From IMG/VR virus record IMGVR_UViG_3300020472_000171, positions 1-23,421 of that record: a stretch of 23,421 nucleotides of DNA; one strand, 5' to 3'. The position numbers and the translations under genes were made by a program. The notes beneath the pieces are model-generated. The model saw only the letters and a program-made list of their open reading frames with translations. It was not told where the DNA came from and did no database searches. Below, piece by piece: positions 8,609 through 23,421 of this stretch (positions within the stretch are counted from its first letter, which is position 1; every line of letters starts with the position of its first letter). This stretch comes from a virus.

Positions 8609-9130
8609 TTATAACTCCATGAGCCACCAACCTCTTAGTGCAGGTGGAATTGTTTGTGCATTTGCAGAATTTGCAAGGTCTGTATCACCAGCATAAACTA
8701 ATCCAAATGATGCATTACGTGTCTGAATTATTAATTCTCCAGAATCCCACTGAGGAATACTTCCACCAGCACCAGCAGCAATAGATGTACCACTGCTATC
8801 ACCTTGAATTGATACAGCAATATTATTAACCTTAAGTGCTCTAATAATAAGACTTGTATTGTATGTTAGATTACCACTTAGTTCAACGAATCTAATCATA
8901 TCACCTGTCTGTGCATTATCTGGTAAATATAGAACCATATTATTACCACTTGCAGAATTAATCAAATAGTTATTATTAACTTGTAGTGGTGTGGTCTGTG
9001 TTTGACCAACACCAGCTATGTCAAATTCAACATAGGTGAATCTTCTACCACCATTTGCAGTCCAATACTTCTCAATACCAAATGAATCAATAGCATTGTC
9101 CTGATAGATCTTAAAGTCTTTAGCACCTTG
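8609..9130 (-). other. C-terminal globular end of giant protein
   Basis: The last 175 or so residues of the giant protein change from shaft-like repeats to a compact beta-rich segment: NNNYLINSASGNNMVLYLPD, NLTYNTSLIIRALKVNN, WDSGELIIQTRNASFGLVY and finally LRGWWLMEL. The pattern of NNNYxI, LPxxxxxGDxxRxVxxxGNL, SLxIRA, SGELxxQTxxAxFGLVY and GWWLMEL is familiar from C-terminal ends of cyanophage structural proteins. It is probably the exposed tip or the trimerisation cap. Confidence 0.55.
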
Positions 9131-12100
9131 AGTACCACCAACTCCAGCAGATCCAAGATTATCTATATGGAATATAGACTCAGTACCACTCTCAGTTGGG
9201 AAAATTTTACCCTTCTGATAGAATGATTCACCCATCTCAACACTACCAGATAGACCTGCTACCCTAAATGTTCTTACGTTTGAACATACATTATTAATCT
9301 GACAAGACTCTTGGTAAGTATAAAGGTCACCAAAGAAGTTACCATTACCTTTAAGAGTTAATCCATTTGTACCTGTCTTAGGATCAAGTAGAGAACCATC
9401 ACCTGAGTGCTCATCATCATTAGCAATAGACAATACCACAGTTTGACGATCAGAACCATAGATTCTCAAAGCACCACTGTATATTTCTACATCATCATTA
9501 GTAGTTAAATGACCACCACCAAATAGTTTGGTGACATCACCATTAGACTCTCTTATACTCTTAACTAACTTAACACCGTATGCAGTATCAGTAGATCCAT
9601 CAATACTATCAGGTAAGAACCACTCAGTTCCTATTCTAATATACTGTTCATAGTCTTGCTTGTTAGATATTAAATCAGAATCCCTTAACTGTATCTCATA
9701 TCTAAGATCACTGCTGTTAGGTTGTCTTGCTTTAATAGAAGTTAATCCACTAGACCTATCAGTGCGAGTTGCAGGGATAGTATTTAATAGTGTAGTAGTT
9801 CTATCAAACTTATTAATCTTAACTACATCATCACCAGCACTAAATGTAGTTGCTACTGTATCTTCCTTACCTCTACCTCCAAGTGGATAGTTAGCATTGG
9901 TTTGTGTTGGAAGAATTAAGTTGCCACTACCATCTGTATATGGTGCTTGTGTGATCTGAATGATCTCAATATTAGATTGATTAGTAATCATTACAAGATC
10001 ACCAACCACAAATCCATCAATGTTAGAAGCAATTATAATATCAGATGTTGAAGCAACTATAGGATCAGCAACAGTTGTGCTTGGTCCACCAGCAGATTTT
10101 GCTTGTGGATCCTTTCTATAAACATGAACGACATCAACACCAGCAGCATATTGAGACGTTCCAGTACCAAATGCTTCTGCTGTTACAAATACTGTACCAT
10201 GTGTATTACCAATAACTGTGTCACCTGTACAAGTGTCAACCTCAAAGGTCTCAATACCATCACCATTTGTTATAGTTAACTTCTGATTAGTATCAGAGTT
10301 AGTATATGGTGCAGCACATGAACCATTAATAGTAAGAGATCCTTCTGTAGTTAGATCACCACCAATGAATAAATTACCATTGGTTGAATCAACCTCAAAC
10401 ATCACCTCTTCGGCTGTAGTATCACAACCCTTCTTAACAGTAAGTTTCTTAGGAACTTGATTAATTAGAGTCTTAACTTCAATGATCTCACCAGTTGCTC
10501 CTGTAGCATCACGATCAACCATTACATAGTCACCAACCTCTAGTGATCCACCAAACTGTGATAGATACACATCATCTTCTGCTCCTGAGTTATCAATATC
10601 AGCAGTGATCCAAGTTGATTGGTACTGTACCTGACACTTGAATATTGCTGTATCTTCATCATGGAAGTCACCAATGGTAGTCATTGTACCAAATGGTTGT
10701 CTCTCAACTATGATGTAGTATGGAGCCTGATTAACTCTTACTAAAGATTTAATCTTAACAAACTCTGCATACTCACCACTACCATCACTATCAATAATTA
10801 ATATGTCATTGATACCATAGTATAGGTTACCAGCAGCATCATAAGGACTCTTATCAATTGGTAAGTAATACTCAAGACCACTCAATGCTGGTAGATTAGG
10901 AGTAACGTTAGTCCTAGGATTCTGATACTCAGCACCACCCCAAGGATCTCCAGACTCAGTGTTAACTGCGTTGTACTCACCTGTGGGTGTTGTTGATGGG
11001 AATCTTAGAACATCAATGAAATCTACATTCCTTGTAGGAGAGAGTCCACCTTGTTGGGTGTGACTCATTATTGTAGATCCACCCTGTGCTCTATATCCTG
11101 TAAATGTGTAAGAGGAAGAACCACCACACAATATTATATCAGAATTAAATCTAGCACTAGCATCTACAACCAAATTGTTTCTAACATTAGTCTTACCACC
11201 TTGTCCAGCGATTGTTACATCAGAACTATTTTCTGCAAACTTAACTATACTTGTAGCACTATTACCTGAGAGGAATTCAACAGTTTCAGAATTAGATTCA
11301 AACTTAGTAATACTACCTGCACCACTCCTTCTGAATCCAAGTCTAACATCACCAGCAATACCAAATGACTTAGTTCCAATCTCAGTGTATGAATCTGTTT
11401 CAGTACTTAAGAAAGCACCACCAATCTTAATCCTAGACTTATTGATATAAGGTGAAGCACCGTCTGGTGTTGCACCAACGTTAATAGCACTAGAAGAACT
11501 CTGATTACCTATCTTGATATCCTGTGCATCTGTCTGTACATTACCAAGTTCAATATTCTGAGCAGATCCAGCAATAAGAAGTCCCTTACTACCACCTGTT
11601 GTAGTACTCTGAGTACCCTTGAAGTGTGTACCCATTAGGAAGTTGAATGTTCCCGTTGTGATACCCGTACTTACATTAACAGTACCATTATCAAAAGCAT
11701 CAGGCCACCAACCAATTGTTACATCCTGTTCAAATTTAACATCATCAGTGAATCTACCAGTACCAACAACAGTTAATGTACTATCAAGCACATCATTTGT
11801 CTGGGTCATTATTCCAGGAATTGCTACCGATGGCCCCATTGTGTTGATACCAACCATACCTGAGTTGGTTGTAGCAACTCTGAAGGTTGCTGCATTGTCA
11901 GGAGTTGCACTATCACCACCAACCAATAATGCATGATCTTGCTCAGTCAATGCATGAGCAGTACCAGCCTTATAAGTTGTTGTCCAATTAGGAGAAGTCT
12001 TACCACTAATGAATGTAGTACCAACAACATCTAAGTTAGCACGTGGATCTGTTCCATTATCAACAAATGCATCCTTCCATGCATCACCACCAGCACGTTG

Positions 12101-15100
12101 TATTGTGTTAACACCAACCTTAAAGTCACCCCAAACATCTGTATCTGTTCTGATAGACTCTGCACCAAGTACACCTGTCTCTTTCCAAGTACTATCAGAA
12201 TATGATAGTGTTGCATTTGGTTCACTAGACCACAATCTTGGGTCATCATTACCAATATTACCTCTAGCAGCAGTGATTGTTATGTCAACATAATCATTAC
12301 CACCAGCGAATGATCCAGAATTAATTGGCCAACGACCATTAACTGCATTGTCACTCAAACCATCTATCTTAATCGTAGATGCAGCAGTAATAGGTGGTAC
12401 GAATGAACTATTCGTTACACTATTCTTCCACTTAAGTCTGATTGTTTGAGTACCATCAAGATCAAGATGCTGAACCTGAGATGATATATCATTAAAGGAG
12501 TTAGCAAGTATCCATGATACTGAACCAGAAGATCCAACACTCTTACCCTTAAGTAAGATGTCACCTGTCTTAGGTAATGGTCCTTGAGAACCATAACGAA
12601 CTATCTGATCTGTTCCAAATGTTCCATCCTGATCAGGAGTAATGTTTGAACCTACTCCACCAACAGCATGGTTTTGAATCTTATATCCTTGAGCAATACC
12701 ACCTGAACCACGTGGGTTGAATTGGAATACAGAAGCAGCAACCATGTTCTTATTAAGAACAATGTCACCTCTTGTTGCTTGGTTACCTTGCTGATTATCT
12801 CTTCCTAAGAGAGCATCTTCTCCAAGACTAGTATCAATAGTTGATAGAATAGTCAGAGATTGTAATCCAAGATTAGGTTCTACTGATATCTGAACAGGTG
12901 AGTTGAAGTTATTAGTCTTCTTACCATCATCACCACCATTAACAGTAATATTCTCATTGAATGTTACAGGAGTGTCAAATGTAGTAACAAGATTATCAAT
13001 AGGATCATCAGGAGTGAATGAATCAACTAATGTTGCTCTTTCTAAGAATTCCTCTTCACCAGTGATAGCATCAATCTTACGGTTACCAATGTATAGGTCA
13101 CCATTAGAGTTTAATCCTGTGTAGAATACCAGACCACCATTCTCTTTCTTAGATTGTGAATAGAAATCCTGAATAGGTGATAGTAATACTTCCTGTCTAA
13201 TTGGTAGAGCAGTTGAGTAGTTACCTGGACCAAAACCAAGGTATTCAAACGTGTGGTTACCAGCACGAGCGATAGATGGTCGTCTAAGTTCAACATATAG
13301 TCTCTGATCTACTACAACTGTACTAGTACCAGCAATAGGAATCTGACGATCTTCAGAACCAGAGGTAGCATTACCTTCCTCTGCCTTGATTATACTATTC
13401 TGATTAACATCCTTAAAGTTGAAAGGTGTTAATGCTGGAGTTTCAACTAAATCTTCAATACCTTCCCTTGTTAGAGAGTTCTTGAAGTCGTTAACAGTAA
13501 CTAAACCATGAATATAGTTATCAGCAGCAGAGTATGTTATTGGTGGATCAACTAAATTACTATCTAATTGCTTAAACCATACAGGATCATTCTTATAGTT
13601 AAGAGGATATAACTTACTTACTGGCTGGGAGAACTTGAAGTTTCTAAAGTTGCCAAGGTTACCAGCACCAGTAGGATATGGTGATACATTACCACGAATA
13701 GCAGTTAGATAGAAAATACCATCTTGCTGTTCAAAGATACGTTTTTGGATCTCTTGAACATCAAAGATATAGAATGTATCATCAATCTCTCCACCATCCT
13801 TAACTGAATCAATATAGAATTGAACACCATCATCATCCTCAACAATATCACCAGGAGTCAGAGTATATACTGCTGCACCATTTTGTCTGTAATAATTTTC
13901 AGGATATTCCTTCTTAATAAGATCTTTAAGTACCAATGACTTACCAAAGTCAGGATCAGAAAGTAGATCTGCAAATACTGCTCCCTGTGATAATCTGATA
14001 GAATCACTAGCAGAATATTCAATCTTTCCAGATACACCCTTAAGAACTAAATGCCATGTGGTATTATTTGGATCATTAGGATTTGTTGGAAGAGCAGCAT
14101 GAATATAACCATATCCAGCACCTGTGCCAGGATCATTCCATTCAACCTTAGATGCCTGATCATACGTACCACTAGGCATATTTGGATTCTTAATGAAAGA
14201 TCCACCTTGAGGTACAGTTACTTGTACAGTAACAAATGATTCATTCTTAAGAGCATTATTTGATATTCCTAAATCAAATACTGACAACTCTAATTGAGTG
14301 TCACCAGTAACAGAATCAACAAAGTATCTACCAGACTGAATAGTAAAGTCAACATAATTCTGAGTAGTTATGACTTTCTTATAAATTATTCCTGATCCTG
14401 TAAGATCTTTCTTATATGGATCATAAGCATCGTCTATCTTACACTCAGGTGATGCATTCTTAAACTGCGAAGCAGTCCAACCAATGATTTCATTAGTCTG
14501 TGTACTACCACTTACATTATTATAGAACTTAGCTTCAGATACTGAGCCAGAAATTTTCTTCAGAATAATTTTTTGTGAAGGAAGTTTTCTAGTCTCATCT
14601 TTCCTCATCTTAATCGTAAATCCATTTAGAGGATCACGAACAGACTTCAGATACTTAGGTACAACATATCTTAAACGATAGATACGATCATTAGGATCTC
14701 TTTCATCCTCTATTCTTGTATAGTAACTATCATTACTCTTATCCTTACCAGATGCATCATTATAATCAGTATCATGGAATCTCTTCAAGATACTTTGAAC
14801 ATCATAGTCTTGAGTACCAGGAGTAGAAGTATCTTTTACTTGTAAATACCACTTACCTTTCTGAGTAGCAGTAGGAGTATTGTCATACGTAGGATCAAAC
14901 TTTAATGGTGATGTACGTTTGTTACAATATACAGCATAATCTTTATCTTCAGTTATTATAATAGGCTGATTATCACCTAAAGCATTAGCGAAAGTCTTAT
15001 ATAATTTGAATACTTTAGGACTCACATATCTAGCCCAGAAGATTACATCTCCACGTATTCTATTATTAGCATCAGCAACAGTAGGATCATTAGCAAAGTT

Positions 15101-18100
15101 TCCACCAACTTTAGGTAGGTCACCTGTATTTGCTCTAAAGAATATTGGATGACCTTCTGGAACACCAGAGTCTGGCTTATCAAATATATGAGCAACATCT
15201 GTTCTCAATCCACCAGGAACAACACCAACACCTGTATCAATAGAAGGAATATATTTAACTAAATCATATACATTATCAAGAGTAAACTGATAGATATCAA
15301 TTTCTACATCTCTATCAATCGCTTCTACTTCAGCAGAGTGAATGTAGATACCAGCAGCAGCATTCTCTACACTGTTTGCTAACATCAACTGACTCTGATC
15401 AGAACCATCAAATGATGTAGTTATTGAATAATCTTTAGGTTGTGTAAATCTACCTGGAGCAATTACATAGTATGTCTCATTAGGACTAAACCCATTAGGA
15501 AGTCTTACTCTACGCTTATCAACATCAACATATTTTTGGGTTACTGTATCCCAACGTGGACGTGGAACCAAGCGTACAGGAGTTCCAGTCTCTAATTTAT
15601 GTGGATTGCCCTGAGATGGTGGTGCTTGATTTGGATCCCTGAGTGACCATACTGTTGCTCTAGTAGAAAGAGCAGCAGTTGATTGTGCTGGCTCATTCCT
15701 AGGAACAGAACCCAATCCATTTTGAATTATAGTATTGATATTAGCGAAGTACTGACGAACAGCAATTGCTTGTGTAGCACACTCAGGATATGATTCTTCA
15801 CGTCTAGAAGCATTTGCAGCAGAAGCAGAGAATGAAGGATCAATATTTGGTCTCAAGTCTGTATATACACCCTTTTCAGCAGCACCAGAACCACCAGTAC
15901 CAGCTACCGTTGGCCAAGAGAACCACAATATCGTTGATGTTGTGCTAGTATTAGCATTAACAGAAGGACCAAATGATATTCCTTTAGGAGATTCTATCCT
16001 CTCTATAGTATCAAGATATCCACTGTTAGATATGGTACTAGTAATAATACCAAACAGAGTAGTTATTGCAGAAGCAACAGTCTGACATGAACCATTAGAA
16101 ATAGTTCTACTAACACTATCAAGTGATGAACCATCAGAAATAGTATCAGTAAGAATCTTAAAGAGTGAGTTAACTGTTGCTCTAATGTCTTCACATCTTC
16201 CAACAGAAGGAGTTCTTATAATACCACCAACTTGTAATGCTCCTATATCTGCACTAACAAATGTATGAGTACTTGTGTTAGTAGAAGGTGCAGATGATAA
16301 TACATTAACTGTAATAGTATCAGCAGTTACTGCTGTAATAGCATTGTAACTAGTGTATGATGGGTCAGTTGCACGTGGATATGTATGAACTGTGTTATCA
16401 CTGTCCTTAGCACAAGTAAATGATAATGAGTTAGGAGCTATGTTAACAACATCACTTGTTGTGAATCCATGATTACCAATGGTCAATACCATGTCACCTG
16501 TGACAGGATTATAATCAGCATTGGTTACAGTTCTATTAACACCAGCCAAGCTTGATGGATCTGTGATAGCATTAGTTGCAATTGCAGTTAATGTATTGAT
16601 AGCAGATCTTACATCCTCACACTTCTCAGCAGACACTGTGCGTGTTACACTATGAAGTGATGTTGGTGTTGCTATAGTATCAGTTAATATTTGAATTAAT
16701 GTTGTTACAGCAGAAGTTTCATTCTGACACTTAGGATTAGCAGTATCAACTGTTCCTGTGTACATAGACTGAGTTAACTGTGTGTGTCCACCAACAGTAA
16801 CTGCTTCATTTCTAACAACTTCAATGATTAGGTCACGTACTGCATTAAATCCAAATATAGTTTCATTCTCATGACCATCAGCATGACCACCAGAAACATA
16901 TAAGTTACCTGTATCCCATACTCTATCGTTACCACCAAATGCTACGTTATGTGCTACAACTTCTACTACATCCTTAAGATCATCAAGACAATCAGCAGTA
17001 GTATATCCAGCAGCAGGGATGTAATTGGTATACTGTGCAAGCATTCTACCCAATGCAATCTCAGAAATAAAATTCTTATTTGCAAGTATTAAGTTCTTAG
17101 CATCAGCAGCCTTATTATTCTGTGGTGTTGAAGTACTAGTTGTAATGGTGTTATCATATGTCTGAGTTTTACCATGTGATCCAATAATAAGAACTCTTTC
17201 GTTTCTCATTACTTGAACCATTAACTCCTTAGCATCTTCAAATGCCATAAGAGTCTGTTCTTCTTCACCAGCAACATGAGCACCTGTTACATACAAGTTT
17301 GCCATGTCATATACTCTGTCATTTCCACCAAACGCTAAGTTATATCCAATTTCAGTAATGAAATCTTTAATATCATCTCTGCAATCCTGTGGATTGCCTG
17401 TTGGAGGAACGAATCCAGGATTCTGAAGGATCATTCTATCATATGCTTCATATGATATTAAATCAGCATTGGATAGAATAAGATCACGAGCATCACCAAA
17501 CCTACCATGTGGAGTAGCATTCTGTGTAGTATCTCTAGTAATGCTAGTATCTCTAGTCTGAGTAAGTCCATGAGAACCAATAGGAAGTATTTCCTGATCT
17601 CTCATGACCTGAACAGCCATATCTCTAGCATGTTCAAAGACTACATTAGTTTCTAGTTCTTCACCAACAACATGAGCACCTGTCTTAAATGAGTATGCGG
17701 CATCATATGTCTTATCATTACCACCATATGCTACGTTGTCTGCAATAGATTCTAATACATCTCTAACATCATCAACACAATCTACATTATGGTATGCTCT
17801 ACTACCACCAACAGAGAATACTTTATGTACTGAGTTAGAAGCAGAACTTACCCAAGCATGAGTGTAATTACCACCACTAGTTACAGCACCAGCAGTTGCA
17901 CTTATAAATTGATGCTGATAACGATCACCAGGAGCAGCAGCACCAACATCAATAGTGATAGTACCTGACTGTCTCTGAATAGCACCTATTGCACCTCTCT
18001 TAAATGTATGAGCAGTTGCTGGCTTCTGATGTACACAGAGATTAGCAGCAGTTACAAATGTATGAGCAGATAGAGGTAGATATTCAACAGCATTAGCGAT

Positions 18101-21100
18101 TGAACTTACAAATGTATGCTTGTAGTGATGACCTGTAGTAATTGAATTATCAAGAGAATCTACATATACATGAGCACCTGCTGTATTATCATTAGCCTGT
18201 CCAACATTAACTGTAATTGTTGTAGATGTTGTAGAAATAATATCAATATACTTTTGATAGAATGGATCAGTTGTACGTGGATAAGCATGTAGTGTTGTAT
18301 TACTATCCTTAGCACAAGTAAATTTCAATCCACCTTCTTTTATTTGTATACTATCACCAACCTGTAAGGAGTGACTACCAATAGTAATCTCCATAACACC
18401 AGTAGCAGGGTCATATGCTGCATTGGATGGTTTGTAATCAGTTATAGTTGGAGTACCAACATTTATTGTTACTGTTCCTGTCTGCTTCTTAATACCATTC
18501 TTAGTAGCAGAAAGGAAGACATGGTTACCTGTATAACTAGACAGACCAACATTAACTCTAAATGTATTAGCAGTAGTCTCTCTAATTTGTAACCACTTTC
18601 CACTTGGATAATCAAATCCTGCACGTGGATAAGCAGATCCTGCCGAAGCTTTACCAACATTAATTGTTATGGTATCATTAGTAATAGCCCAAACCTCTAG
18701 AGGTGTAGCATGTGCTGGATCTGTTGTACGAGGATATGTGTGGACAGTAGCGTTGTTATCTTTATCACATGTGAAGCTTAAAGCATTAGCACCAAAGGTA
18801 ACTGTACTATTTGATTTCTGAAGACCACTAGGAGTAGCACTTGCAAATATATGAGCATGGTCACCACCACTAGTGATAGCATTAGATGCAGCAAACCCAG
18901 GTTTCCATCTGTGAAGTGAATCATCTGTAGTAGTACCAACATTCAAGGTTATTGTAGTTGCTGTTACTGAAGTAATATTAACTGCTGTATCATAAGATGG
19001 ATCAGTTGCTCTTGGATATAAATGATCAGTAGCAAAGTTATCCTTATCACATTGGAATGGTAAGGATCCATTAGTAATCTTAACACTAGTATCAGGAGTT
19101 AAATTATGAGCTCCAATAGTAAGTGTCATTAATCCTGTTGAAGGATTATAAGAACCATCAGTAGGAGTATGCTGTACTAAAGGAGATGTTCCAACATTAA
19201 TATCAAATGTGTCAGTCTGTACATTAGAAATTGTTATCCACTTTCCACTAATAGGATCACTAGGACGTGGGTATTGCTTACTAACAGTATTGCCATCCAT
19301 TGCACACTTCATGCTGATAGAATTATCAGCAAGTTTCACCTTATCTCCATTGGTGAATCCATGACTAGCAACAGTAAGTGTCATCACACCTGTTGATGCT
19401 GTATAAGATGCATTAGTTACAGTAACTGATGAAGGAGCTTGAAGTCCATGTGCAGCACTGGTAATAACCATAACACCAGTAGCAGGGTCATAAGTTGCAT
19501 CAGTTACACTCTTATTACTATTGAATGCATTGGCAGCAGTACCACCAACCCAACTGTGAACACCAGAACCACCTAAAGAACATGCTAATGTTAATGATCC
19601 ATCAGCAATCTGAATATGATCTCCACCATTAGTAACAGCACCAGTAACTGCTGAAACAAAAGTATGTGGATACTGATCAGCAGAAGCAGCTACCTCTACT
19701 TGTACTGTAAATGTACTTTGAGTTACATTACTAACAACTATATCTTTATTACTTACAGGATCACTTGATCTTGGATAAGTATGCTCACTAACATTATTAT
19801 CTTTATCACATGTAAATTTGAGTGTATTATCCTTAATTCTAACGTACTCACCATCAGATAATCCGTGGTTAGGAACATTAAGTGTTAGTACCCCAGTAGC
19901 AGGATCATATGCTGTCAGACCAACAATAGGTGTAAACTCTTGAGGTCCAGCAAATCCATGACTAGGAACGGTAACTGTTAAATCACCAGTAGAAGAATCA
20001 TATACTACATCAGTTGCTGTATGTTCTGATTGTCCTACTTCTGTAATTGATAGTGACTTACCTGCATATGGATCAACACCTGGACGTGGGTAACTATGGT
20101 TTGATACATTACCATCTTTATCACATGTAAATGTGAGTGAATTATCCTTCAAGATAATATCAGAACCAACAGCAAGTCCATGTTGACCCAATGTTAGAGT
20201 CATATCACCAGTCATATAATTATAGTCTGCTGATGTAGGTTGGAAGTACTTGTTATCACCTGCCATACCAACATCAACTATAACAGTATGCTGTCCATCA
20301 CCACCAATAATAGGAAGTGATCTACCAGCAGCTTTGTCTACATTAGGACGTGGATATGTTTGTGGAACTTGATTACCATCCATTGTACATGTAAATGATA
20401 ATGCATTATCATCAATTACAAGACTTGTACCCACACCCCAACCAACTGTACTTGCAAAGGTTAGTGTAAGATGACCACTAGCAGGATCATATGCTGCATT
20501 AGATGGAGTAAATGACTCATTAGCACCAGCAGCTTCAACATTAACCTTAAATGTATCAACTGTGGTATTAGATACAGTCAACCAATCTCCACTTACAGGA
20601 TCGCTTGATCTTGGATATGAATGCTCACTAGCATTACCATCCATTGCACATGTGAAGGTCAATCCATTATCAGAAATTTTTATTCTATCTCCGTTAACAA
20701 ACCCGTGACCAGGAACAGTTAGTTCTAAAATACCAGTAGCAGGGTCGTAGTCACCACCCTCTGCTGTATGATATGATGCACCAACTTTCTTAATCTTAAG
20801 AGCACTCTGGTATGCAGGGTCAGTAGAACGTGGATAGCTTGTAGCAGCATTGAAATTGTCCTTAGCACACTTGAATATTAATGATTGATCTGCTAGTCTA
20901 ACACTGCTTCCAGTTCTAAGATTATGTGAACCAATGGTGAGTGTCATATCACCAGTATTAGGATCATATTGAGCAGCAGAAACATCGTGACTGACGTTTA
21001 TAGTCTTGCCAACATTAATTGTAATTGTATCAGCAGTCTTTGCTGAGACAGGAAGAAGAGCAGTAGCAGCAGGATCACTTACACGAGGATAAGCATGTGT

Positions 21101-23421
21101 TGTGGACTGTCCATCCATATCACACTTAAAGTTGATAGAACCATAATCAAGTCTAACTTGATCAGCAGCTCTCTTCATTCCTTGAGGAGCAGCAGTTACA
21201 AATGTGTGAGTGTAATCACCACCTGTAATTACAGCACCAGCAAGAGCACTAACAAATGTATGTGGATCTGTATTTGTTGATGGTTGTGTAGCTAAAACTT
21301 GTATGGTAATAGTATCAGCAGTAACAGACTCAATCTGAATTGATGTATCATGGAATGGGTCTGTAGATCTAGGATATGATTTCTCAGCAGCAGTACCAGT
21401 AGCACCACCAAATCCACAACTAAACTTCAATGATTCTTCTAGAAGTTTAATACTTGTACCAGCAGTTAGTCCATGATTACCAATCGTTAAGGTCATTAGA
21501 CCTGTTGTTGGATTATAATCAGCAGCAGTAGGAGTGAATGATACTGTAGGTGACTCACCAACATGAACATCAAAGGTATTTGTAGTTACATTACTAACCT
21601 CTAACCACTTACCAGATACAGGATCAGTTGCTCTAGGATAAGTATGCTGAGTAGCATTATTATCCATGTCACACGTTAATGTGATTGAATCATCAGCAAA
21701 CTTAACTTTCTCACCAGCAGCAAACCCATGAGCATTCATGGTTACAGTCATCTTACCTGATGTTGCATTAAATGCTGCACCACCAATAGTATGAACATCT
21801 GCTGCATCTAATCCATGACCAACAATTGTTAGTTCAAGTTCACCAGTAGTAGCATTATAAACTGCCCCTGTAGGTGTGAACTGCTCTGTTGAGGATGAGA
21901 GAACCATTCTCTCAACTGCCTCATGTGCAATAATTTCTTTATTAGCAAGGATTAAATTACGTGCGTCACCATTTCTATCATTTACTAACTCTGGTGCTTC
22001 CTGAGTAATAGTAGCATCCTTATTCTGACTTAATCCATGAGCACCATAAACAAATACATCCTCACTACGCATGATTTGAACAGACATGTCCTTGGCATAT
22101 TCAATAGCACGTAAAGTTTCAGGTCTCTTCTGTGCAATATATGCTACCCTACCACTATCATAATGGTCAGCAGCATCCCAAACTTCATGGTTACCACCAT
22201 ACTTAGTGTTCTCTGCAATAGATTCTACAATATCAACTAAATCATCTTTACAATCTTGGGCAGTATATCCTGTTGGTGAAGTATATCCTGGATAATCCAA
22301 GACCATACGATCAAATGCTTCTGCTGCAATAAAGATCTTATTAGTTAATAGTTGATCTCCAGCATCACCAAAACGATCACCAACTACTTTTTTCTCTTCA
22401 GCAGTTGCTTGTTGTCCTATCTCAATTGTACTAGAGTCAACAATTCTCTTAACGTAAGTACCAGCTGGAATAACAGTATTATTTGGTGTTGCAGTAGATT
22501 TTAATTCATTAGCTTCAAAATCTGCTGGATCATAGTCAGCAACTAACATACCTGGAACAATACCAGAGCTATCACTAACATTAACAAGAGAATTATTAGC
22601 AGTTGTCTCTACATTAGTACGCTTGTAAGTAAAGTTACGAAGTGCTGCAATAGCAAGATCTCTAGCATAATCATATCCTTCCAGAGTCTCTGTTAATTCC
22701 CCAGTAATATAAGAAAGATTGTTACCAACGTAATATGATTCACCAGCTTGAATAGTATTGATGTTTCCACCAAGTCTTAAATCTTGTATTGTTGCATCAA
22801 GAAGGTATCCAATATCTCTACGACATTTCTCAATAGTAATACCATTCTTAATTAAAAGACTTGGATACTTAGATGTAATGAATCCATATGCTTCATAAGC
22901 AATAAATTCTTTATTATCTTCAATCCTATTAGCAGCATCCTGATCTTTATTACTTACTACTACATTACCACCAGGATTAAGAATCTTAGGAGCAGCAGCA
23001 AACCTCTGGAATCCTGTTGGATTTAATGTTGCTTTATGAATACTATCATTTAATCCTGCACCAGGAGTTAACTTAACAAATATTTGTTCATCTGACTTAG
23101 CACCAATAGTATATCCACCAATAGTTGCTGCTGGTCTATCATTGGGATCATAACCTTCATCATCACCAAGATATATTGCAGTATGATTAGCAGGATCATT
23201 AGATGCTTGTATATCTAAAGTATAATATGAATTTCTCTTTATAAACTCAGGAGAATCAGAAACAATCTCTGGTGGTATGATAGCATCAATATATCCACCC
23301 TTATCTTGGTTAAATGCGTATCCTTTATGTCCTTTAGCATGTAACGATGTATTACCAAAGTTACTGTTAGAGTTGGTGATACTCATATCACCACCACTTT
23401 CCATTAGGAAGTGATCAGCAA
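8609..23421 (-). CDS. Giant multi-domain phage structural/fibre protein, 5'-partial
   Basis: The frame runs from the right edge to the TAA at 8611-8609. The first ATG in view is at 23404, giving 4931 residues (over 500 kDa), but the frame stays open for five more codons (Ala-Asp-His-Phe-Leu) to the edge, and no ribosome site precedes that ATG. A second ATG at 23386 begins MSITNSNSNFGN, a beta-helix-like stretch. The real N-terminus is therefore probably outside. Numbering from 23404: helical GGN modules at about 159-502 and 1875-2216; a beta-module array at 503-1874; a Cys repeat array from about 2226 to 2475; an unrecognised region to about 3370; RAGNHTFEYLGFGPGNYS near 3380; a repetitive shaft to about 4800; and a C-terminal globular end closing in GWWLMEL. 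These last motifs are familiar from T4-like cyanophage structural proteins. It is likely a tail fibre or tail-surface protein; the precise part is not known. Confidence 0.85.
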   Translation of the reverse strand, partial: ADHFLMESGGDMSITNSNSNFGNTSLHAKGHKGYAFNQDKGGYIDAIIPPEIVSDSPEFIKRNSYYTLDIQASNDPANHTAIYLGDDEGYDPNDRPAATIGGYTIGAKSDEQIFVKLTPGAGLNDSIHKATLNPTGFQRFAAAPKILNPGGNVVVSNKDQDAANRIEDNKEFIAYEAYGFITSKYPSLLIKNGITIEKCRRDIGYLLDATIQDLRLGGNINTIQAGESYYVGNNLSYITGELTETLEGYDYARDLAIAALRNFTYKRTNVETTANNSLVNVSDSSGIVPGMLVADYDPADFEANELKSTATPNNTVIPAGTYVKRIVDSSTIEIGQQATAEEKKVVGDRFGDAGDQLLTNKIFIAAEAFDRMVLDYPGYTSPTGYTAQDCKDDLVDIVESIAENTKYGGNHEVWDAADHYDSGRVAYIAQKRPETLRAIEYAKDMSVQIMRSEDVFVYGAHGLSQNKDATITQEAPELVNDRNGDARNLILANKEIIAHEAVERMVLSSSTEQFTPTGAVYNATTGELELTIVGHGLDAADVHTIGGAAFNATSGKMTVTMNAHGFAAGEKVKFADDSITLTCDMDNNATQHTYPRATDPVSGKWLEVSNVTTNTFDVHVGESPTVSFTPTAADYNPTTGLMTLTIGNHGLTAGTSIKLLEESLKFSCGFGGATGTAAEKSYPRSTDPFHDTSIQIESVTADTITIQVLATQPSTNTDPHTFVSALAGAVITGGDYTHTFVTAAPQGMKRAADQVRLDYGSINFKCDMDGQSTTHAYPRVSDPAATALLPVSAKTADTITINVGKTINVSHDVSAAQYDPNTGDMTLTIGSHNLRTGSSVRLADQSLIFKCAKDNFNAATSYPRSTDPAYQSALKIKKVGASYHTAEGGDYDPATGILELTVPGHGFVNGDRIKISDNGLTFTCAMDGNASEHSYPRSSDPVSGDWLTVSNTTVDTFKVNVEAAGANESFTPSNAAYDPASGHLTLTFASTVGWGVGTSLVIDDNALSFTCTMDGNQVPQTYPRPNVDKAAGRSLPIIGGDGQHTVIVDVGMAGDNKYFQPTSADYNYMTGDMTLTLGQHGLAVGSDIILKDNSLTFTCDKDGNVSNHSYPRPGVDPYAGKSLSITEVGQSEHTATDVVYDSSTGDLTVTVPSHGFAGPQEFTPIVGLTAYDPATGVLTLNVPNHGLSDGEYVRIKDNTLKFTCDKDNNVSEHTYPRSSDPVSNKDIVVSNVTQSTFTVQVEVAASADQYPHTFVSAVTGAVTNGGDHIQIADGSLTLACSLGGSGVHSWVGGTAANAFNSNKSVTDATYDPATGVMVITSAAHGLQAPSSVTVTNASYTASTGVMTLTVASHGFTNGDKVKLADNSISMKCAMDGNTVSKQYPRPSDPISGKWITISNVQTDTFDINVGTSPLVQHTPTDGSYNPSTGLMTLTIGAHNLTPDTSVKITNGSLPFQCDKDNFATDHLYPRATDPSYDTAVNITSVTATTITLNVGTTTDDSLHRWKPGFAASNAITSGGDHAHIFASATPSGLQKSNSTVTFGANALSFTCDKDNNATVHTYPRTTDPAHATPLEVWAITNDTITINVGKASAGSAYPRAGFDYPSGKWLQIRETTANTFRVNVGLSSYTGNHVFLSATKNGIKKQTGTVTINVGTPTITDYKPSNAAYDPATGVMEITIGSHSLQVGDSIQIKEGGLKFTCAKDSNTTLHAYPRTTDPFYQKYIDIISTTSTTITVNVGQANDNTAGAHVYVDSLDNSITTGHHYKHTFVSSIANAVEYLPLSAHTFVTAANLCVHQKPATAHTFKRGAIGAIQRQSGTITIDVGAAAPGDRYQHQFISATAGAVTSGGNYTHAWVSSASNSVHKVFSVGGSRAYHNVDCVDDVRDVLESIADNVAYGGNDKTYDAAYSFKTGAHVVGEELETNVVFEHARDMAVQVMRDQEILPIGSHGLTQTRDTSITRDTTQNATPHGRFGDARDLILSNADLISYEAYDRMILQNPGFVPPTGNPQDCRDDIKDFITEIGYNLAFGGNDRVYDMANLYVTGAHVAGEEEQTLMAFEDAKELMVQVMRNERVLIIGSHGKTQTYDNTITTSTSTPQNNKAADAKNLILANKNFISEIALGRMLAQYTNYIPAAGYTTADCLDDLKDVVEVVAHNVAFGGNDRVWDTGNLYVSGGHADGHENETIFGFNAVRDLIIEVVRNEAVTVGGHTQLTQSMYTGTVDTANPKCQNETSAVTTLIQILTDTIATPTSLHSVTRTVSAEKCEDVRSAINTLTAIATNAITDPSSLAGVNRTVTNADYNPVTGDMVLTIGNHGFTTSDVVNIAPNSLSFTCAKDSDNTVHTYPRATDPSYTSYNAITAVTADTITVNVLSSAPSTNTSTHTFVSADIGALQVGGIIRTPSVGRCEDIRATVNSLFKILTDTISDGSSLDSVSRTISNGSCQTVASAITTLFGIITSTISNSGYLDTIERIESPKGISFGPSVNANTSTTSTILWFSWPTVAGTGGSGAAEKGVYTDLRPNIDPSFSASAANASRREESYPECATQAIAVRQYFANINTIIQNGLGSVPRNEPAQSTAALSTRATVWSLRDPNQAPPSQGNPHKLETGTPVRLVPRPRWDTVTQKYVDVDKRRVRLPNGFSPNETYYVIAPGRFTQPKDYSITTSFDGSDQSQLMLANSVENAAAGIYIHSAEVEAIDRDVEIDIYQFTLDNVYDLVKYIPSIDTGVGVVPGGLRTDVAHIFDKPDSGVPEGHPIFFRANTGDLPKVGGNFANDPTVADANNRIRGDVIFWARYVSPKVFKLYKTFANALGDNQPIIITEDKDYAVYCNKRTSPLKFDPTYDNTPTATQKGKWYLQVKDTSTPGTQDYDVQSILKRFHDTDYNDASGKDKSNDSYYTRIEDERDPNDRIYRLRYVVPKYLKSVRDPLNGFTIKMRKDETRKLPSQKIILKKISGSVSEAKFYNNVSGSTQTNEIIGWTASQFKNASPECKIDDAYDPYKKDLTGSGIIYKKVITTQNYVDFTIQSGRYFVDSVTGDTQLELSVFDLGISNNALKNESFVTVQVTVPQGGSFIKNPNMPSGTYDQASKVEWNDPGTGAGYGYIHAALPTNPNDPNNTTWHLVLKGVSGKIEYSASDSIRLSQGAVFADLLSDPDFGKSLVLKDLIKKEYPENYYRQNGAAVYTLTPGDIVEDDDGVQFYIDSVKDGGEIDDTFYIFDVQEIQKRIFEQQDGIFYLTAIRGNVSPYPTGAGNLGNFRNFKFSQPVSKLYPLNYKNDPVWFKQLDSNLVDPPITYSAADNYIHGLVTVNDFKNSLTREGIEDLVETPALTPFNFKDVNQNSIIKAEEGNATSGSEDRQIPIAGTSTVVVDQRLYVELRRPSIARAGNHTFEYLGFGPGNYSTALPIRQEVLLSPIQDFYSQSKKENGGLVFYTGLNSNGDLYIGNRKIDAITGEEEFLERATLVDSFTPDDPIDNLVTTFDTPVTFNENITVNGGDDGKKTNNFNSPVQISVEPNLGLQSLTILSTIDTSLGEDALLGRDNQQGNQATRGDIVLNKNMVAASVFQFNPRGSGGIAQGYKIQNHAVGGVGSNITPDQDGTFGTDQIVRYGSQGPLPKTGDILLKGKSVGSSGSVSWILANSFNDISSQVQHLDLDGTQTIRLKWKNSVTNSSFVPPITAASTIKIDGLSDNAVNGRWPINSGSFAGGNDYVDITITAARGNIGNDDPRLWSSEPNATLSYSDSTWKETGVLGAESIRTDTDVWGDFKVGVNTIQRAGGDAWKDAFVDNGTDPRANLDVVGTTFISGKTSPNWTTTYKAGTAHALTEQDHALLVGGDSATPDNAATFRVATTNSGMVGINTMGPSVAIPGIMTQTNDVLDSTLTVVGTGRFTDDVKFEQDVTIGWWPDAFDNGTVNVSTGITTGTFNFLMGTHFKGTQSTTTGGSKGLLIAGSAQNIELGNVQTDAQDIKIGNQSSSSAINVGATPDGASPYINKSRIKIGGAFLSTETDSYTEIGTKSFGIAGDVRLGFRRSGAGSITKFESNSETVEFLSGNSATSIVKFAENSSDVTIAGQGGKTNVRNNLVVDASARFNSDIILCGGSSSYTFTGYRAQGGSTIMSHTQQGGLSPTRNVDFIDVLRFPSTTPTGEYNAVNTESGDPWGGAEYQNPRTNVTPNLPALSGLEYYLPIDKSPYDAAGNLYYGINDILIIDSDGSGEYAEFVKIKSLVRVNQAPYYIIVERQPFGTMTTIGDFHDEDTAIFKCQVQYQSTWITADIDNSGAEDDVYLSQFGGSLEVGDYVMVDRDATGATGEIIEVKTLINQVPKKLTVKKGCDTTAEEVMFEVDSTNGNLFIGGDLTTEGSLTINGSCAAPYTNSDTNQKLTITNGDGIETFEVDTCTGDTVIGNTHGTVFVTAEAFGTGTSQYAAGVDVVHVYRKDPQAKSAGGPSTTVADPIVASTSDIIIASNIDGFVVGDLVMITNQSNIEIIQITQAPYTDGSGNLILPTQTNANYPLGGRGKEDTVATTFSAGDDVVKINKFDRTTTLLNTIPATRTDRSSGLTSIKARQPNSSDLRYEIQLRDSDLISNKQDYEQYIRIGTEWFLPDSIDGSTDTAYGVKLVKSIRESNGDVTKLFGGGHLTTNDDVEIYSGALRIYGSDRQTVVLSIANDDEHSGDGSLLDPKTGTNGLTLKGNGNFFGDLYTYQESCQINNVCSNVRTFRVAGLSGSVEMGESFYQKGKIFPTESGTESIFHIDNLGSAGVGGTQGAKDFKIYQDNAIDSFGIEKYWTANGGRRFTYVEFDIAGVGQTQTTPLQVNNNYLINSASGNNMVLYLPDNAQTGDMIRFVELSGNLTYNTSLIIRALKVNNIAVSIQGDSSGTSIAAGAGGSIPQWDSGELIIQTRNASFGLVYAGDTDLANSANAQTIPPALRGWWLMEL
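8615..8618 (-). promoter_or_regulatory. Shine-Dalgarno in the end of the giant gene
   Basis: GGAG on the minus strand lies nine bases before the ATG at 8605 and is formed by the last Met-Glu codons of the giant protein (MEL, stop). It is the clearest ribosome binding site in the window and supports the chosen start of the 564-residue collar protein. Confidence 0.65.
9800..10820 (-). repeat. Three degenerate GD-V beta modules in the shaft
   Basis: Three segments of the giant protein resemble each other. They lie at about 10810-10640 (DILIIDSDGSGEYAEFVKIK then LVRVNQAPYYIIVERQPFGT), about 10575-10410 (EVGDYVMVDRDATGATGEII then EVKTLINQVPKKLTVKKGC) and about 10045-9810 (VVGDLVMITNQSNIEIIQIT then NYPLGGRGKEDTVAT). 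The shared plan is a GDxVxI strand, an E-xx-xI strand, then a V-xR-xxxGT-like strand. They are interspersed with paired cysteines and short G-L-x-I-G-G-D shaft repeats (for example NGNLFIGGDLTTEGSLTING). Confidence 0.5.
13200..13290 (-). other. Conserved fibre motif in giant protein
   Basis: The stretch RRPSIARAGNHTFEYLGF, followed by GPGNYSTALP, lies near residues 3375-3401 of the giant protein. I recognise it as a strongly conserved block in structural proteins of T4-like cyanophages and related marine phages. It comes just before the shaft region and is the best family anchor in the giant protein. The function of the block is not established. Confidence 0.6.
15980..16735 (-). repeat. 36-residue cysteine repeats with a 106-residue insert
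   Basis: Four repeats follow the pattern C-xx(V/I)-x(S/A)-(A/V)-(I/V)-xxL-xxI-xxxxI-(S/T)-xx-S-L-xx-V-xRT. The leading cysteine codons start at 16729, 16621, 16195 and 16087. Repeats 1-2 and 3-4 are each exactly 108 bases (36 residues) apart. Repeats 2-3 are 426 bases (142 residues) apart, because one complete beta module (YNPVTGDMVLTIGNHGF to HTFVSADIGAL, with YPR at 16381) sits in the linker after VNRTV. The repeats are predicted to be helical hairpins; their function is unknown. Confidence 0.8.
16760..17782 (-). repeat. Second half of helical module 3, modules 4 and 5
   Basis: At 17782 the missing second half of helical module 3 begins (DCVDDVRDVLESIADNVAYGG) and ends with GSHGLTQTRDTSITRD near 17545. 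Module 4 (about 17510-17150: LILSNADLISYEAYDRMIL, CRDDIKDFITEIGYNLAFGG) and module 5 (about 17130-16760: LILANKNFISEIALGRML, CLDDLKDVVEVVAHNVAFGG) follow in full. In intact modules the linker between the two halves is only 13-15 residues. Confidence 0.75.
17783..21898 (-). repeat. Array of YPR/FTC beta modules
   Basis: About 1372 residues are built from a recurring unit. First comes YDPxTGxMTLTIxxHGL, then GxxVKIxDxSLxFTCxMDxN, then HxYPRxxDPxxxxxLxIxxV, then TxxTIxVNVG, and in many copies HTFVSAxxGAVxxGG. The tyrosine of YPR is encoded at 21640, 21376, 21091, 20836, 20617, 20356, 20092, 19777, 19273, 19018, 18736, 18631 and 18283, so most spacings are 73-105 residues with a mode near 85-88. 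One unit near 19500-19620 has lost YPR (HSWVGG instead), and one near 18631 is only 35 residues after its neighbour. The left end (18180-17830) has only HTFVSA-type submodules. The protein fold is unknown to me; the alternating strands suggest a beta-rich rod. Confidence 0.85.
21899..22940 (-). repeat. Helical GGN modules 1, 2 and first half of 3
   Basis: The giant protein has a helical module of about 115-125 residues. It begins with LxNKxFIAxEAxxRMVL, continues after a linker with DC-xDD-(L/V)-xD-(I/V), then YGGN, and ends with a helix carrying AxDMxVQxMRxE and the motif GxHGLxQ. Copy 1 (about 22940-22640) is divergent (CRRDIGYLLDATIQDLRLGG). Copy 2 (about 22382-22000) is complete (CKDDLVDIVESIAENTKYGG). 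Copy 3 begins at about 21990 (LILANKEIIAHEAVERMVL) and stops abruptly at 21899, where the beta array begins; its second half is found 4.1 kb away. Confidence 0.75.

Follow-up and report, generated by a model that had tools for sequence, protein, structure and literature searches.

The giant gene described here is, taken as a whole, quite probably best explained as encoding a phycobiliprotein-like helical spine, that is, tandem domains homologous to phycobiliproteins (bilin-binding globin fold), the third copy of which has been opened at the loop between helices B and E (the B-E loop) by an array of beta modules. The gene lies in a 23,421-base virus record, probably a fragment, to the whole of which we refer as the window. 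Its minus strand carries a single uninterrupted frame, 8609-23404, which counts 4931 codons and stays open up to 23419; at 23404-23421 the giant ORF runs past the contig edge. PHROG 4527 matches residues 2435-4931 (2608 bits for the protein), the 449-456 related phage records nearly all bear the names of Synechococcus or Prochlorococcus phages or of cyanophages, and the genes downstream of the ORF carry tail-collar and tail-assembly-chaperone domains, the upstream side being cut off in the window. Judged by homology and gene order (collar-domain genes downstream), the protein belongs to the giant cyanophage tail proteins T4-GC734/296 and is the giant tail protein of a T4-like marine cyanophage. 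In S-PM2 (L034), a string of tRNA genes is annotated within the coordinates of the giant tail gene (15914-20741).

Residue 1 as read corresponds to positions from about 490 to more than 1400 within orthologue frames, and to about 490-525 in the nearest full-length orthologues (L007, L012). Since it is internal in these frames, the true N-terminus is absent from the window, a point that the preliminary description had missed: the contig edge removes about 500 N-terminal residues and thereby offsets the numbering. The full protein would probably comprise around 5.4 thousand residues. The features of the window, with residues numbered as read, are:

8609-23404, minus strand: giant tail protein ORF, read as 4931 aa and open at its 5' end; orthologue of S-PM2 T4-GC734 (3779 aa)
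22628-22960, minus strand: copy 1, phycobiliprotein-like; residues 149-259, KCRRDIG motif, Cys194
21989-22390, minus strand: copy 2, phycobiliprotein-like, whole; residues 339-472
21866-21985, minus strand: first part of copy 3; residues 474-513, helix 1 resembling helix B
17783-21898, minus strand: insertion in copy 3; 1372 aa (residues 503-1874), placed in the loop that joins helix 1 to the Cys helix
18155-21889, minus strand: beta-module array, modules of about 100 aa; 12 clear and some partial by HMM; all-beta in the AF2 model of orthologue L008
17798-18154, minus strand: array end; beta segments of the HTFVSA..GAVTSGG type, conserved up to YHNVDC
17528-17797, minus strand: second part of copy 3; residues 1870-1959, from the Cys1876 helix on
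17777-17779, minus strand: Cys1876 codon; corresponds to the chromophore Cys of phycobiliproteins and follows the insertion directly
17132-17515, minus strand: copy 4, phycobiliprotein-like, whole; residues 1964-2091
16733-17119, minus strand: copy 5, phycobiliprotein-like, whole; residues 2096-2224, modelled with pLDDT about 95 and matched to phycoerythrin
16253-16543, minus strand: single beta module; residues 2288-2384, flanked by short helical hairpins

The split of copy 3 and the inserted array

A helical profile (HMM) built from copies 2, 4 and 5 only matched copy 3 in two pieces, namely residues 474-513 on profile positions 3-41 (27.5 bits) and residues 1870-1959 on positions 41-130 (95 bits), the two halves covering exactly complementary parts of the profile. 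When shuffled, the region scored at most 5.5 bits (1000 shuffles), and a search of the insert with the helical profile gave zero matches. Copy 3 is cut between residues 502 and 1875, and the insert (residues 503-1874) corresponds to window 17783-21898, the position that the preliminary description had assigned to it, exact to the base. Between the RMxx and DC motifs there are 14 residues in copy 2, 13 in copy 4, 14 in copy 5 and 1372 in copy 3, which makes the earlier wording of an 'unusually large scale' a fair one. The linkers of the other copies are indeed short, as had been said, but the lengths then given (1-15 or 13-15 residues) have to be replaced by the measured 13-14 in copies 2, 4 and 5. 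With a second profile, made from 72 copies of the uninterrupted clade, the halves of copy 3 scored 31+122 = 153 bits, while copies 2 and 5 reached 143 and 151 and copy 4 reached 194. We regard the split of copy 3 and the nested insertion within it as practically certain.

The intervening 4.1 kb had been assigned entirely to another domain family; by HMM, the insert holds 12 clear beta modules and partial ones. A repetitive gene within a metagenomic contig might in principle stem from an assembly chimera or misjoined reads. The probability of this is negligible here, however, as 16 other contigs, with collinear arrays, have this junction at an identical profile position, and insertions at a second loop are present in S-CAM4 and Sf-FP1, both complete isolate genomes. 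An assembly artefact is thus refuted by a junction common to many contigs.

It is fairly likely that the halves of copy 3 still form one domain, within one chain or between chains. Their continued pairing is supported indirectly, given that both halves keep profile scores on a par with copies 2 and 5. We modelled a natural orthologue segment that contains the whole insertion (L008 562-1560, 999 aa, eight rows). The model (mean pLDDT 75, pTM 0.42) shows helices at 20-44, strands from 47 to 880 and helices at 897-957, which agrees with an all-beta insert placed inside a helical domain. Foldseek returned weak matches only for this 999-residue model, many of them to proteins with repeated beta domains. 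We consider it rather unlikely that the halves no longer make up one domain in one chain, with the array as a straight rod and helix 1 either domain-swapped in a multimer or unpaired. Such an arrangement would fit the 8-13 serial modules, which set the ends far apart unless the array turns back, and the pLDDT of about 45-70 in the second half of the L008 model, along with its pTM. This low model confidence may only reflect the eight rows, however, and both halves keep their full profile score and their invariant core positions. The preliminary description had proposed an expandable surface rod looped out of a helical spine: the expandable part stands, with 8-13 modules at the same site, but at a pTM of 0.42 the L008 model does not bear out the looped-out rod.

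Across the clade the arrays are collinear (module order 534-620-722-803-876-961-1051) and differ in length, modules having been gained and lost inside. Pairs of beta modules in the window are 19-53% identical, so that the duplications are old, and a recent tandem duplication was rejected on these values. Single modules of L006 (residues 634-734) and L098 (residue 1159 onward) are 83-86% identical to window module 620-720, compared to about 50-65% for their neighbours, a sign of module-level recombination between phages. Within window residues 534-1750 there is one near-invariant Cys (FTC) per clear beta module, and each helical copy likewise has one Cys. The single module at 16253-16543 is flanked by the hairpins KCEDVRS and RCEDIRAT and looks like a smaller insertion of the same kind. 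PF12195 (endosialidase beta barrel) weakly matched 3 of 22 beta modules (best E 0.0096), and with 15.6 bits for member 1 the modules stay below the cut-off of 35. A host origin of the beta modules found no support in a genome scan, which gave two contigs, both probably viral. Giant phage-type proteins with the same two module families occur in a Nonlabens xiamenensis record (L106) and a Euryarchaeota MAG record (L107), both of them probably virus contigs that were assigned to the genomes of a bacterium and an archaeon.

Whole and split copies among relatives

Copy 3 is whole in at least 19 related contigs and cut at the same place in 16 others, where it holds 8-13 beta modules. L012 (61% identity over the N-terminal part) contains four whole copies and zero beta modules, and a whole copy 3 without array was also found in L043-L055 and in L056-L063, the latter having more copies. 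Conversely, copy 3 is cut at the same profile position and carries 8-13 beta modules in L006-L011, and it is split as well in L064, L068, L072, L073, L075, L076 and L096-L099, fragments besides. The preliminary description had proposed to ask whether some homologues have this module uninterrupted, and such orthologues exist (L012, L043-L063). Its idea of a nested insertion into one ancestral module holds, since empty orthologues exist, split and whole copies 3 are nearest relatives and the halves fit the profile. Recombination at the junction via the FTPTG motif, also suggested there, is compatible with what we found; among the relatives examined, we found no close pair of split and empty alleles.

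In a tree of all copies, copy 3 of L012 pairs with the split copy 3, and L012 is basal in copies 2-5. On the tree of the neighbouring repeat-free region (residues 2481-3130), the split/whole label amounts to one change; when this tree is rooted with an outgroup, the uninterrupted rows group together as a clade next to L011, surrounded by split lineages, a single split clade not being rejected (AU p 0.34). Given that the paralogous copies and the single outgroup copy are whole, the uninterrupted form came first in either case. There is a somewhat less than even chance that the array was ancestral to the clade and that the uninterrupted clade lost it cleanly, the 'empty' copy 3 being a restored site. 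The nesting of the uninterrupted rows beside L011 would fit such a loss, as would the homogenised look of the L012 copies (identical linkers), which could reflect conversion by neighbouring copies. Set against it are the AU result, the basal position of L012 in each of copies 2, 3, 4 and 5 and the wholeness of the paralogous and outgroup copies; the choice affects the timing of the insertion, not its nature. Since the arrays are collinear, we do not favour the view that whole arrays entered this site several times independently.

The helical domain also has a second insertion site, located in the loop that connects helices 3 and 4 and precedes the GEE.ET motif. In S-CAM4 this loop is opened by 2 modules in a domain that is whole in S-WAM2 and S-MbCM7. 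In Sf-FP1, Sf-CH11 and L023 it holds 3 modules in another copy than that of S-CAM4, the opened domain being whole in S-RIM44, S-RIM32, S-H9-2 and S-PM2. Copy 3 is doubly interrupted in L072 and L096-L099, by a long B-E-loop array and by one module before GEE.ET, and L071 has three modules between whole copies 3 and 4. These separate second-loop insertions in other phages indicate that insertion into domain loops recurs, and, as far as sequence comparison reaches, the loops of the helical domain are repeated entry points for beta modules. In L072 the doubly interrupted region spans residues 2170-2380 of the giant ORF; the single modules found in L072 and L098 closely resemble each other and were perhaps exchanged between lineages. 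A domain that is either empty or filled (0 or 8-13 modules) represents a natural experiment on the tolerance of very large insertions, and also informs how phage tails gain length.

Likeness of the helical module to phycobiliproteins

We are highly confident that the helical module, whose nature the preliminary description had not recognised, is, by homology, a phycobiliprotein-like (bilin-binding globin) domain, as AlphaFold with Foldseek, profile searches of the PDB and PF00502 on relatives agree on this identity. An AF2 model built from 89 rows for window 16205-17125 (copy 5 together with the hairpins and the beta module behind it) had a pLDDT of 88.7, and copy 5 within it one of about 95, with four helices at 5-31, 43-63, 67-80 and 86-104. 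In a Foldseek search of the PDB, phycoerythrin beta came out on top (E 2.7e-4, probability 1.00, TM by target 0.65-0.68), followed by other phycobiliproteins, plain globins being mostly weaker. The fold is accordingly a globin-like helical one, at a pLDDT of about 95 and a Foldseek probability of 1.00 to phycoerythrin/phycocyanin. A profile of 38 copies matched 53 PDB sequences at E<=10, all of them phycobiliproteins (best 6.5e-4), and aligned the invariant module Cys on the chromophore Cys-82; a copy-1-like profile gave 101 matches, of which all 60 listed were phycobiliproteins (best 5.4e-5). In hhalign comparisons with five phycocyanins (PDB sequences), the copy-1 alignment reached P 3.6e-7, with shuffled controls above 0.08, and copies 2-5 reached P 0.0018. 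Copy 1 of S-PM2 and phycoerythrin alpha are 33% identical over an alignment of 63 aa (E 2e-9, valid for a single comparison). The homology is clear for helices B-E and weaker after them.

PF00502, whose curated cut-off is 22.2 bits, matched 25 of the 38 copies (best E 8.6e-6). It exceeded the cut-off in four whole orthologues, at 75.7, 58.1, 45.7 and 38.8 bits (E 5.1e-21, 1.3e-15 and 8.6e-12, and 1.1e-9 for the S-PM2 protein), and in a single copy of L053 at 23.3 bits. Within the window, copies 1 and 4 scored 14.3 and 12.2 bits, both below the cut-off, and copies 2, 3 and 5 gave no match. A direct PF00502 search of the window, Pfam on the whole window ORF and phmmer of the whole ORF against the PDB all returned nothing, and it took a profile built from the family to reveal the likeness. 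With the window's own copies below the Pfam cut-off, membership rests on the family. As a unit of about 125 aa embedded in a larger protein, the module is not a light-harvesting phycobilisome subunit, which would stand alone, measure about 160-177 aa and have helices X/Y.

It is possible, at odds that we put a little short of even, that the modules share only the globin-like topology by convergence, or that they lost their ligand long ago, the Cys being structural and the domains a scaffold. In the window there is a single Cys per helical copy and one per clear beta module, which would suit an inter-chain disulphide network, and copies 2-5 have lost the Arg of the CxRD motif; disulphides are also used in the tail of phage Milano (PMC10811340). 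Pulling the other way, the profile searches give only phycobiliproteins among the matches listed, Cys on Cys, bilin-free globins mostly stand behind phycobiliproteins in Foldseek, and K, C, R and D are invariant in 18 aligned copy-1 sequences, beyond what a disulphide needs.

Putative bilin site, possible function and comparison with known systems

For the phycobiliprotein-like domain that we favour, the insertion in copy 3 sits in the B-E loop, directly before the helix with the chromophore-equivalent Cys, and the bilin Cys and Asp positions are conserved in the helical modules. The CXRD motif, which includes the chromophore Cys (PMC10151467), is found in 115 of 121 copy-1-like modules, as KCxRD in 111 and as SCxRD or ECxRD in four more. 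Copies 2-5 do not have it and show CxDD instead.

In each of the 33 loci whose flank extends for 2.2 kb or more, a cpeT homologue is found upstream of the giant gene. It is upstream in 12 of 12 isolates, and only 2 of the 33 gene clusters in the 5.5-kb interval are universal. In L030-L041, cpeT and the small gene T4-GC730 make up the universal upstream pair, amid changing tRNAs and metabolic genes. The giant tail gene is directly preceded by a gene noted as phycocyanobilin:ferredoxin oxidoreductase in Sf-FP1 (L032; 10957-11664) and in L023. The cpeT gene was detected in 66 phage records and a copy-1-like module in 266, which means that not every phage with such modules needs the lyase. Enzymes of the CpeT type are reported to serve the Cys-153 equivalent (PMC10452541), and the phage helical modules are without this residue. 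The linkage between cpeT and the giant gene points, suggestively, to a bilin role; it is only suggestive given the 66 versus 266 records and the relatedness of the phages. A bilin bound in the virion appears rather unlikely, though conceivable.

The giant protein, whose family is annotated as tail or structural, is likely to be part of the adsorption apparatus. Its S-PM2 orthologue (S-PM2d218, 3779 aa) is among the genes mutated during coevolution with the host (PMC9910659), and adsorption is light-dependent in several cyanomyoviruses (PMC2984593). In the mechanism that we propose, the array would be a side arm or extension that places many beta modules, possibly carbohydrate-binding, off the axis, and it would grow or shrink as modules are gained or lost. 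Bilin enzymes of the phage or the host, together with the neighbouring CpeT, may supply copy 1 (KCxRD) with a bilin, and this could affect adsorption to the host. The genes with which cyanophages make and attach bilins are read as helpers of host light harvesting. How bilin genes help Prochlorococcus phages is described as unclear in a review, Prochlorococcus having no standard phycobilisomes (PMC2984593). An improbable but consequential idea is that the tails of marine cyanophages are pigmented: copy-1 modules might bind PebS/PcyA bilin, aided by CpeT, with a bearing on light-dependent adsorption. If true, it would explain why bilin genes are kept even on Prochlorococcus hosts without phycobilisomes, and the B-E-loop beta arrays would be arms next to the bilin site. 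With CxRD domains in the tail downstream of a bilin-lyase gene, a link to light-dependent adsorption could be tested in the culturable S-PM2.

In the open-licence literature we found no description of phycobiliprotein-like domains in a phage structural protein, although automatic Pfam annotation may show them. Each of the parts is known by itself (phycobiliproteins, their paralogues in bacteria, the giant tail proteins of cyanophages), but in that literature we came across neither their combination nor split copies holding as many as 13 inserted domains. Phycobiliproteins (phycocyanin, phycoerythrin, allophycocyanin; PF00502) have the same fold (TM up to 0.68 by target) and a common sequence of helix B, loop and helix E with the chromophore Cys and an Asp at +3, and the K-C-x-R-D of alpha-phycocyanin is also present in phage copy 1. 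In contrast to them, the phage unit has neither the N-terminal helices X/Y nor the second Cys, shows CxDD in copies 2-5, and occurs in tandem inside a viral tail protein of thousands of residues, with one copy split by 1372 residues. Bilin biosynthesis-associated globins (BBAGs) are phycobiliprotein paralogues outside the antenna, encoded beside bilin-related genes, and the CXRD motif is present in BBAG-1/3, which bind bilins without lyases (PMC10151467). BBAGs are stand-alone small bacterial proteins, whereas the phage domains are repeats of a tail protein encoded beside a CpeT-type lyase gene.

Compared with the T4-GC 734/296 'short tail fiber' proteins (PHROG 4527), the gene is orthologous and stands in the same order in S-PM2, S-RIM44, S-CAM1/3/4 and S-WAM2; the phycobiliprotein domain is unnamed in the annotations of the giant tail proteins of this group that we examined. 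The majority of distant orthologues show one copy where the window clade has four (copies 2-5), and the window clade carries a beta array in copy 3. The phage endosialidase beta barrel (PF12195) has a weak sequence likeness to the beta modules, and endosialidases are also among the weak Foldseek matches, but this likeness lies below the cut-off and the window family has arrays of 8-13. Insertion of domains into loops of host domains is known, including Ig-like domains in phage proteins. There, too, a domain is placed in a loop of another fold; here, by contrast, 8-13 domains share one loop, two different loops are used, and several lineages are involved.
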